Origin: an uncultured Pelagibacteraceae bacterium
GTDB lineage: Bacteria; Pseudomonadota; Alphaproteobacteria; Pelagibacterales; Pelagibacteraceae
Direction: 5' to 3'
Assembly (NCBI GenBank): GCA_902561465.1
Contig: CACEPH010000004.1
Location: 1 to 49,710, forward strand
DNA: 49,710 nucleotides
Below the pieces are notes generated by a model. The model did not search any database and was not told the origin of the DNA. It saw only the letters and a list, made by a program, of their open reading frames with translations. The position numbers were made by a program, and so were the translations under genes. Of this stretch, positions 18,178-21,645 are shown in pieces. Each line of letters opens with the position of its first letter. Within the stretch, counting starts at the first letter, position 1.

Positions 18178-19326
18178 ATGAACACTTCAGCACAAAAAAT
18201 TAACTCTTTGGGCATAGAAAAGCAACCCAAAGATACAAAAGTAGTAGTAGCTATGTCAGGAGGAGTTGATTCATCAACCGTAGCAGGTTTAATGAAAAAA
18301 GAAGGATATGATGTAATTGGCGTTACACTTAAGCTTTATGATGATACCAAAAAATCGAAGGAAAGTAGACAATGTTGTGCTGGTCAGGATATATTAGATG
18401 CAAAAAGAGTATCACAACAATTAAATATTCAACATAGAATTTTATATTATCAAAAAAATTTTAAAAAAGAAGTTATAGAATCTTTTATTGATAGTTACGT
18501 TGCTGGTGAAACTCCAATACCATGTGTTCAATGTAATCAAACTGTTAAATTCAGAGATTTATATGATTACGCTAAAGAACTAAAAGCAGATGCCCTAGTA
18601 ACAGGGCATTATGTTAGCAGAATCCAAAAAAATGGTAAGGCTGAACTTTATAGAGCTGTAGATTTAAAAAGAGATCAAAGTTATTTTCTTTTCGCAACAA
18701 CTCAAAAACAACTAGATTTTTTAAGATTTCCTCTAGGTAAAATGGATAAAAATGAAACACGTAAAGTTGCTTTAAAGCTTAATTTAAATGTTGCTGATAA
18801 ACCAGATAGTCAAGATATATGTTTTGTTCCAGGTGGAAATTATGCTGCAGTAATTAAAAAGTATAGACCAAAATCTTTTAAAACAGGTGATATTTTAAAT
18901 ATTAATGGAGATATAATAGGAAAACATGAGGGTATAATTAATTATACAATTGGCCAAAGAAAAGGAATTAAAATCCCTCATAGCGAACCACTTTATGTTG
19001 TGGACATTGATGCGGCACAAAATAAAGTTATAGTAGGTACAAGAGACGCTTTATCTATCAAAAAAATATATCTAAAAAATTTAAATTTACTTAGTGATGT
19101 GGAAAAATATAACGAAAATCTATTTATAAAAGTAAGATCTACCGGAAGATTAATTAAAGCAAAAATAAAATTAGAAAAAACTCAAGCAGAAGTAATTTTA
19201 GAAGAAAATGAATTAGGGATATCACCAGGGCAAGCTTGTGTATTTTATTCAAAAGATAGAATTGGGGATAAAGTTTTAGGTGGAGGCTGGATAACTAAAA
19301 CATCCAACAAATATTTATCCACATGA
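18178..19326 (+). CDS. mnmA: tRNA-specific 2-thiouridylase MnmA
   Basis: MnmA installs the 2-thio group on U34 of Lys, Glu and Gln tRNAs using sulfur relayed from IscS. The PP-loop [14 protein letters not shown] (about residues 25-38) binds ATP. The two catalytic cysteines lie in PCVQCN (near 120) and DICFVPGG (near 220). Later blocks such as YTIGQRKGI and the beta-barrel ending SPGQACVFY are intact. Length is 382 with an alphaproteobacterial N-terminal extension. It is divergent from the DUF3553-cysQ pair. Confidence 0.97.
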
Positions 19327-19402: not shown

Positions 19403-19590
19403 TTATTGACTTAAGAGGCAACTCTTAACTGGCCAGGTAAGGAAAGACCGAGAGGTTCAAGCTCACCGGGCAGAAAACCCTGCAGAGTAGCGCTTAACAT
19501 AGTAGGGTGGCGGGTTCGACGGTAGCGCATACAACGGCGAACCAAAAATTAAAAGTTCTAGCACGAAAGTGTTAGAACTTTTGGTTTTTT
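19403..19590 (+). ncRNA. Candidate structured RNA of unknown family
   Basis: Between mnmA and a convergent membrane-protein gene lies a stretch with about 57% G+C by hand count (19429-19543), far above its surroundings. It begins with a perfect 7-bp hairpin closed by a GCAA tetraloop (19411-19428). It contains a GACC-GAGA-GGUU hairpin (19446-19457) and a possible 6-bp GGUUCG/CGAACC closing helix (19513-19543). It ends in a 14-bp terminator stem with a GAAA loop and a T run. A TATGAT sequence (19390-19395) could be the -10 box, putting the 5' end near 19403. I see no credible reading frame. It does not match tmRNA, SRP RNA, RNase P, 6S or a riboswitch well enough to name. Confidence 0.65.
19551..19590 (+). 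terminator. Intrinsic terminator of the candidate RNA
   Basis: A 14-bp stem (AAAAGTTCTAGCAC / GTGTTAGAACTTTT, one G-U pair) is capped by a GAAA tetraloop and followed by GG and six T residues. It is the strongest terminator of the left half. Confidence 0.88.
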
Positions 19591-20293
19591 AGGGCCTTTT
19601 TTTCCAAAATAAAAAAGTTAGTAGATAAAAAAGAAGTATTGCAGCGAAATAATTCCATTCCAGAGCATGTTTAAAAAGTGTGTGTCCAGATGTTGTTATT
19701 ATAGGCAATGAAGCAAAGGCAATAATAACTAATGAAGATACTAAAATAGATTTTAAAATAAGGACTTTACTATTTATTATTTGAGAAATTTTATTTTTAA
19801 TTTTAAATAAAGCAATTACCAATAAAGTTTGTGCAACAATTTCAAATATAATAAATCCTAGAAGCACAAATCTTCTAAAAAATTTATATAAATCATACTC
19901 AAATTTAACACCTAAAAAAATTGAATGAACAATTAAAAATATAGCAGACAAAACACCAAAAATTAAAAAACGCCTATTTTTTCCAGATTCGTTATTAATT
20001 TTTTTAATTATAGTATTATTCGCATACCAATATTTTATTAATAGAATAGCAGTAATTATCATGCCAGGTTTAAATAAAAGGTAGGCTGGATATGTTCTTG
20101 CTACTCTGCTTATAGATACAGATCCATCAATATAAGGTATGGTGAATCCGGTTCTTCCTATTTGATCTACAATAAATATTGTATTTTCAAAAAGATGATG
20201 ATTCACTGAAATAAATAAGCATAAATTTAAAACTATTAAAGGAAGTATAAAAATCCAAATGCTTATATTTCTGATTTGACTTATTTTTTCCAC
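19589..20293 (-). CDS. Frag1/DRAM/Sfk1-like six-segment membrane protein
   Basis: A 234-residue polytopic protein with about six membrane segments. The first loop contains IPYIDGSVSISRVARTYP, and the last membrane helix is preceded by LEWNYFAA. This arrangement matches the Frag1/DRAM/Sfk1 (Cwh43 N-terminal-like) family, whose eukaryotic members handle lipid remodelling; bacterial members lack known functions. Its stop codon lies in the terminator T run of the convergent RNA. A tiny basic-peptide gene lies 10 bp upstream in the same direction. Confidence 0.65.
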   Translation of the reverse strand: MEKISQIRNISIWIFILPLIVLNLCLFISVNHHLFENTIFIVDQIGRTGFTIPYIDGSVSISRVARTYPAYLLFKPGMIITAILLIKYWYANNTIIKKINNESGKNRRFLIFGVLSAIFLIVHSIFLGVKFEYDLYKFFRRFVLLGFIIFEIVAQTLLVIALFKIKNKISQIINSKVLILKSILVSSLVIIAFASLPIITTSGHTLFKHALEWNYFAAILLFYLLTFLFWKKRP

Positions 20294-20303
20294 TTATAAA
20301 CTT

Positions 20304-20387
20304 TTATTTTCTTTTGTTTCTTTTACGAGCTCTTCTTTTTTTAGAGCCCATTTTTCTACGGCCCCTATGTTTTTTTGGATATCCCAT
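20304..20387 (-). CDS. 27-residue extremely basic peptide
   Basis: A short frame encodes MGYPKKHRGRRKMGSKKRRARKRNKRK, in which about 17 of 27 residues are Lys, Arg or His. An excellent ribosome site (AGGAG, on the minus strand at 20395-20399) stands 7 bases before this ATG. An ATG two codons earlier would be too close to it, so the site decides the start. Composition and length recall ribosome-bound micro-proteins (bTHX, bS22/mS38-like), but I cannot assign it. It is upstream of, and possibly co-transcribed with, the Frag1-like gene. Confidence 0.6.
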   Translation of the reverse strand: MGYPKKHRGRRKMGSKKRRARKRNKRK

Positions 20388-20466
20388 ATTCATTCTCCTA
20401 TTAAATTAATTCAATTGATTTTACTCAGTGGATATAGCATTCTCCTATTTTGTTATCAAATATTTT

Positions 20467-21645
20467 ATGTCAAAATCAGTTAAAACATATTTAAAAACTG
20501 CTGCTAAAGATTATAGATCTAGATCGGTTAACCCTCCTGTGGTACGCGCGTCTACAATTTTGTTTAAAACAATGCAGGAGTTAAGAAAACACCAAAAAGA
20601 TATAGCAAAAAAAAAGGACGTTGAATTTTGGGATTACGGAAGACAGGGAACACAAACTACAGTTCAATTACAAAAATTACTTAGAGGATTAGAAGAAGCC
20701 TATCAAGTATTTTTAACACCAACAGGTTTTGCTGCAGTTGCTTTATCAATAATGAGTATATGTAGACCAGGAGATGAAATATTAATTTCTGACGGAGTAT
20801 ACAGACCAACACAAAAAATTACCGATGATTTACTTAAAGAATTTAAAGTAAGAGCTGTTTGGTATAACCCAAATGATTTTCAAGATTTTAAAAATAAAGT
20901 TACAAGAAAAACAAAACTTATTTATGTTGAAAATCCTGGAAGCAATACTTTTGAAATGAATGATTTAGGAAAAATAGTTTCTTTGGCAAAAAGTAAAAAT
21001 ATATTTACAGCGATTGATAACACTTGGGCTACAGCATATTTTTTTAAACCTTTAAAATTAGGTTTTGATATATCAATTACATCGGCAACTAAATATTATT
21101 CTGGACATTCTGATGTTATGGCAGGAACTGTTGCTGTTAATAAAAAAGCTTATGACAAAGTTTGGTGGTATAACCACGTGTCAGGTTACAGATTATCAGC
21201 AGATGATGCGTATTTAGTTATAAGAGGCTTAAGAACTTTAGATATAAGATTAGAAAAACATCAGGAAAATGCAAAAAAAATTATTAATTTTTTAAAAAAT
21301 CAAAAAAAAATATATAAAATATTATATCCTTACAAAACCTCATCAAGAGAATTTAAATTATTAAAAAAATATTATTCAGGAGCCTCTGGTTTATTAAGTT
21401 TAATAATAAAAAGTAAAAGTAAAAATTCAGTATACAAATTTGTTAATTCATTAGAACTATTCGGCATTGGTTATAGCTGGGGAGGTTTTGAGAGCCTTGC
21501 CGTTTATACTGACCCAGTAGAACTAGGAGTAAGACGCTACTTCAAATTGGAAAAAAATGAACACCTAGTTCGTTTACATATCGGTCTTGAAGATCCAAAA
21601 GATTTAATTGAAGATTTAAAAAAATCTTTAAAATTTATTAAATGA
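20467..21645 (+). CDS. metC: Cystathionine beta-lyase, PLP-dependent
   Basis: A Cys/Met-metabolism PLP enzyme of 392 residues. The N-terminal VNPPVVRASTILF block, YGRQGTQTT, the aldehyde-binding region TPTGFAAVAL and the Schiff-base lysine in TSATKYYSGHSDVMAG identify the cystathionine beta-lyase (MetC) branch, which makes homocysteine from cystathionine. I place the start at ATG 20467, giving the usual N terminus; an in-frame GTG at 20428 would add 13 hydrophobic residues. Its end overlaps the MFS gene by 4 bp (ATGA). A broader C-S lyase activity is possible. Confidence 0.88.
   Translation: MSKSVKTYLKTAAKDYRSRSVNPPVVRASTILFKTMQELRKHQKDIAKKKDVEFWDYGRQGTQTTVQLQKLLRGLEEAYQVFLTPTGFAAVALSIMSICRPGDEILISDGVYRPTQKITDDLLKEFKVRAVWYNPNDFQDFKNKVTRKTKLIYVENPGSNTFEMNDLGKIVSLAKSKNIFTAIDNTWATAYFFKPLKLGFDISITSATKYYSGHSDVMAGTVAVNKKAYDKVWWYNHVSGYRLSADDAYLVIRGLRTLDIRLEKHQENAKKIINFLKNQKKIYKILYPYKTSSREFKLLKKYYSGASGLLSLIIKSKSKNSVYKFVNSLELFGIGYSWGGFESLAVYTDPVELGVRRYFKLEKNEHLVRLHIGLEDPKDLIEDLKKSLKFIK

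Follow-up and report, generated by a model that had tools for sequence, protein, structure and literature searches.

A very short, highly basic gene of SAR11 bacteria encodes an apparently undescribed protein family that is also carried by phages

Can an open reading frame of only 27 codons be a real gene, and what would so small and so basic a product do in the cell? The question is raised by contig CACEPH010000004.1 (assembly GCA_902561465.1) of an uncultured Pelagibacteraceae bacterium; the whole stretch analyzed, 49,710 nucleotides, is called the window here. The original prediction saw a hyper-basic peptide in which about 17 of 27 residues were Lys, Arg or His, preceded by a well-placed AGGAG, and suspected a small gene of the kind that is routinely missed. 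The frame lies on the minus strand and its stop codon ends at 20304. Read from the first ATG (20391–20393) it has 29 codons, and from the second ATG (20385–20387) it has 27. The Shine-Dalgarno word AGGAG is located at 20395–20399 on the same strand, 1 nt from the first ATG and 7 nt from the second, and the comparison of family loci showed that conservation starts at the second. Because of this spacing and this start of conservation, the 27-residue polypeptide MGYPKKHRGRRKMGSKKRRARKRNKRK, encoded at 20304–20387 with the stop included, is likely the product of the microgene; the alternative ATG two codons upstream lies outside the conserved codons and is probably not the start. The exact count of basic residues is indeed 17 of 27 (eight Lys, eight Arg and one His), and the ribosome-binding site is placed as well as had been thought.

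How well is this frame kept among relatives? The search of SAR11 genomes that the original prediction had proposed gave matches to the 27-residue query in 49 of the 60 genomes examined from the window's own family, including all 20 with completeness of 90% or more and contamination of 5% or less; the 11 genomes without a match are 55–89% complete. In one matching genome (G035) the contig ends inside the gene, leaving its last 17 codons, which read in frame. The other 48 genomes contain 49 gene copies (two in G031), every one of exactly 27 codons and free of internal stops, so that the broken frames named beforehand as a contrary sign were not encountered. The 11 non-matching genomes and G035 were also searched for the divergent neighbour of the microgene, an approach to gene loss that applies to lineages with the same divergent neighbour. 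Contigs start inside this neighbour in G003, in G035 and probably in G008, the remaining nine genomes had no close match to it, and no intact locus without the microgene was seen among the 12.

The expected bias toward synonymous sites was also present: among 47 distinct DNA sequences pN was 0.079 and pS was 0.59 (pN/pS about 0.13). Gly9 is written as GGC, GGT, GGA and GGG, and invariant residues generally use several codons, which indicates selection on the protein and not on the DNA. Over 19 SAR11 variants 17 of the 27 columns are invariant, and 13 are so in alignment A2, whose 16 variants cover phage and Gemmatimonadota sequences as well; the near-invariant core is YPKKHRGRRKxGSKxRR. That a chance or non-coding frame has been mistaken for a gene could be argued from its absence in every family library searched. 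Against this stand the fixed frame and length, the mostly synonymous change and, independently, the composition itself. The basic fraction of the microgene frame is 0.59, the runner-up among 421 window frames of 20–60 aa has 0.41, and in 100 order-2 Markov windows no frame of this size reached 17/29 basic residues (maximum 0.50). Conservation thus refutes a chance origin, whose probability we consider negligible, and it is near certain that 20304–20387 on the minus strand is a real gene.

An SD-like word lies within 22 nt of the start in 33 of 49 SAR11 loci. A generic consensus promoter scan reported no site upstream of the microgene, and the promoter-like element was found by comparing loci. 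It consists of a conserved extended −10-like sequence TGCTATATCC at 20430–20439 and a −35-like TTGATA at 20454–20459, both on the minus strand, with 17 nt between TTGATA and TATATC; this arrangement with its TG extension precedes the microgene in many SAR11 loci. The distance from TGCTATA to the start codon was 38–54 nt across 60 rows of the locus comparison. The pattern was present in 68 of 175 loci having at least 90 nt upstream, a set which includes duplicates between collections and non-SAR11 lineages. Whole variants do not have it, for example 20 copies ending IGSKKRRARKRNKKK, and several deep genera have neither the SD-like word nor the promoter-like element. Each of four genomes searched had one match of the pattern, and in the window's own genome (G000) the sole match is the microgene site.

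In the window, a hydrophobic 234-aa frame, probably a membrane protein, lies 10 nt downstream (19589–20293, minus strand); Pfam gave nothing significant for it (NrsF, E 0.066), and it is a probable co-transcription partner of the microgene in many SAR11. On the plus strand are the divergent neighbour, a PLP-dependent enzyme of Cys/Met metabolism (20470–21645; PF01053, E 8e-101), and an mnmA-like tRNA 2-thiouridylase (18178–19326; PF03054, PF20259 and PF20258). The window's neighbours were named by Pfam, and those elsewhere by eye. Most SAR11 loci have the order MFS transporter, PLP enzyme, microgene, 234-aa membrane-like protein and mnmA. Several SAR11 genera do not have the membrane-like gene, and there mnmA lies directly downstream of the microgene in convergent orientation. 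The IMES-2 structured RNA (RF02035, 143 bits) was identified at 19404–19545 on the plus strand, between mnmA and the 234-aa frame. It was also present in 9 of 19 other microgene loci scanned, so that in many SAR11 it belongs to the conserved surroundings of the microgene. In other families the microgene adjoins genes which, by eye, we take to be LysR-like and SbmA-like, MsrB-like and MFS, or sigma-factor-like and CspA-like. Since the neighbours differ in this way, the microgene stands alone. No ribosomal operon surrounded it in any locus examined.

Two explanations depend on these neighbours. A leader peptide or a secreted antimicrobial peptide would agree with a short, cationic product whose gene is, in many SAR11, closely followed by a second one. 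The microgene occurs as a single gene on the chromosome, and its surroundings differ from lineage to lineage; for this reason a leader peptide of one neighbour is ruled out. The peptide is nearly unchanged in several genera that do not have this downstream gene or have another in its place. Near-invariance is expected of neither kind of peptide, and on direct reading the sequence shows no hydrophobic segment like that of a signal peptide, so that we regard this whole explanation as very improbable. Alternatively, the product may be a chaperone or regulator that serves one non-ribosomal RNA or machine, such as a tRNA-modification complex, tmRNA, IMES-2, an RNase or RNA polymerase. The frequent proximity of mnmA, directly convergent in some genera, and the position of IMES-2 next door favour such a partner; however, the sequence of the microgene is kept in other families where the neighbours differ, and also in those scanned loci, 10 of 19, where IMES-2 was not matched. 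We consider this partnership unlikely.

Does the product belong to a known family? Searches of Pfam, NCBIfam and PHROGs with the window peptide returned nothing with an E-value of 10 or lower, and its phage and Gemmatimonadota relatives had no match in the same three libraries either; PDB sequences searched with the peptide and with the profile likewise gave nothing at E up to 10. The NCBIfam library can detect proteins so small, since Thermus bTHX, bS22 and bL37 used as controls each match their own models. The original prediction had likened the peptide to ribosomal micro-proteins of the bTHX and bS22 type. The likeness holds for size and charge, and membership of either family was rejected by models and shuffles. 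Like the microgene product, bTHX (Thx/S31; TIGR04560, NF011339) has 27 residues in Thermus, is very basic and begins with MG, but there is no profile match in either direction, and the GKGDRRTRRGK with which the Thermus protein starts is missing from the microgene product. TIGR04560 exceeded its cut-off in none of 41 SAR11 family genomes, with no hit at the microgene, and the family profile scores Thermus bTHX no better than its shuffles. The bS22/mS38 proteins (AURKAIP1/COX24_C; NF047430, PF08213) are tiny and K/R-rich, and bS22, with 33 aa in mycobacteria, is ribosomal. Here too PF08213 was over its cut-off in none of 60 genomes, and on the family profile the score of mycobacterial bS22 was equalled or exceeded by 385 of 500 of its own shuffles.

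The third candidate, bL37 (NF047428, NF047429), is a basic ribosomal protein of likewise tiny size, 24 aa (PMC5876184). The NCBIfam search gave no match to it, its planctomycete model was over cut-off in none of 20 genomes, and on the family profile 314 of its 500 shuffles scored at least as well as bL37 itself. The architecture also differs: bL37 has a helix and then a loop, whereas the model of a phage relative in the present family has a loop and then a helix. A role as stand-in for a lost bS21 (PF01165) was rejected as well, since 11 of the 12 genomes tested from the family encode bS21, as do 8 of 8 from a second family in the order. A literature search for core strings of the family found no paper, and the peptide was not described in the titles and opening lines of abstracts on SAR11 small proteins and Pelagibacter ribosome structures. 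By these sequence comparisons, which exclude bTHX, bS22 and bL37, the microgene product appears to be a previously undescribed family.

The family also extends to viruses. In IMG/VR, two pattern scans (26 and 32 contigs) together gave 34 viral contigs with relatives, and two further scans added nothing beyond these 34. The YPKKHRGRR form is found in 26 of the 34, in peptides of 28–40 aa; the viral relatives have longer C-terminal tails. The other eight have a divergent start and keep the HRGRRKxG core, the only part that these most divergent forms retain. Against the family profile, each of three divergent phage versions outscored every one of its 500 shuffles. Six contigs (L235–L240) share a common divergent version with core KHRGRRKLGRKKRRKR, possibly a separate subfamily. 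The first 25 residues are identical in phage copies L211, L218 and L220 and in an alphaproteobacterial chromosomal copy (L065); this identity suggests that the gene has been exchanged between phage and host. A tblastn search of INPHARED phages gave no matches under a low-complexity filter that removes these queries; in a local control the filter removed the match of the peptide even to its own DNA, so that this search was uninformative.

The viral contexts bear on another explanation, in which the product is a protamine-like or nucleoid micro-protein that binds and compacts DNA in SAR11, in phage heads or during phage replication. With 17 of 27 residues basic the peptide would suit this role; by PHROGs, its gene is accompanied by portal, holin, GroES and head genes in one phage group (L219) and by exonuclease, HNH and integrase genes in another (L213), and the viral carrier contigs reach 328 kb. 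A protamine-like role, however, should tolerate changes that preserve composition, and the 13 invariant positions include Y3, P4, H7, G9, G14 and S15. A DNA-binding role of this kind appears to us unlikely.

Outside the family the distribution is patchy. The order contains a second family, where none of 40 genomes matched the 27-residue query and none of 14 matched in the profile search. At the level of class, 289 genomes were searched, and full-length matches below E 1e-9 occurred in nine, of which three belong to the microgene's own family and the rest, six, to three further families of Alphaproteobacteria. The best hits of 68 of the 77 matching genomes were weak (E 0.0026 or worse), and the 11 loci read among these 68 contained no comparable small protein. 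Among 398 genomes of the phylum only two matched at E 0.001, both from the same family as the window. In the phylum of Gemmatimonadales record L095, full-length relatives were found in 3 of 150 genomes, and the L095 copy sits, by eye, among chromosomal and not phage-like genes. These Gemmatimonadota carriers (L242 and L243 among them) are scattered, which suggests that the family has spread horizontally beyond marine Alphaproteobacteria.

If the protein is under such strong constraint, what does it bind? The invariant part combines charge with Tyr3, Pro4, His7, Gly9, Gly14 and Ser15 (alignment A2), and at C-terminal positions K and R interchange freely; together these features favour a defined RNA pocket over a simple polycation. 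The AlphaFold model of a 33-aa phage relative, built from 16 aligned rows, is extended over residues 1–12 and helical over 13–31 (mean pLDDT 81.5, pTM 0.38), an anatomy that could fit a structured RNA pocket. An eL41-type micro-protein is a single basic helix at the subunit interface. From sequence and model, the product most likely grips a structured RNA such as that of the ribosome. The extended N-terminal half, with its invariant Tyr, Pro, His and Gly among K/R, would thread into a specific pocket, and the predicted helix from about residue 13 would supply phosphate contacts in which K and R are interchangeable. The RNA would most likely be ribosomal, and the protein would be comparable in kind to bTHX, bS22 and bL37 and separate from them in sequence.

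The ribosomal identity of the RNA is inferred from two precedents: the 24-aa bL37 was recognized from ribosome cryo-EM density and occupies an rRNA pocket (PMC5876184), and viral bS21 proteins, one of them from a pelagiphage, become incorporated into ribosomes (PMC6375957). The latter are also common to SAR11 and a pelagiphage and mainly aquatic in viral data, but they are unrelated in sequence, and bS21 is present alongside the microgene in these genomes. Phages carry versions of the microgene product with extended basic tails, just as they carry bS21, and these versions would probably act on host ribosomes during infection. Several results speak against a ribosomal role: the absence of a ribosomal operon from the loci examined, the phage contexts of head, holin and GroES genes or of DNA metabolism, which would equally suit DNA binding, and the patchy distribution, since a second family without the gene means that a closely related ribosome does without the peptide. 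On balance, we give an even chance to a tiny RNA-binding family, carried by phages too, whose members are most likely lineage-specific micro-proteins of the ribosome or associated with it.

Few groups of bacteria in the ocean are as abundant as SAR11. Its genera share this protein almost letter for letter, and no library searched contains it, for which reasons the gene is probably part of the core machinery. Low-complexity filtering can hide families such as this one. It is a tentative possibility that a hyper-conserved ribosomal micro-protein of SAR11 has been missed, that phage and host exchange it, and that the tailed phage versions reprogramme or stabilize host ribosomes. If the protein is ribosomal, the composition of the SAR11 ribosome and the interest of phages in it would become directly testable in culture.
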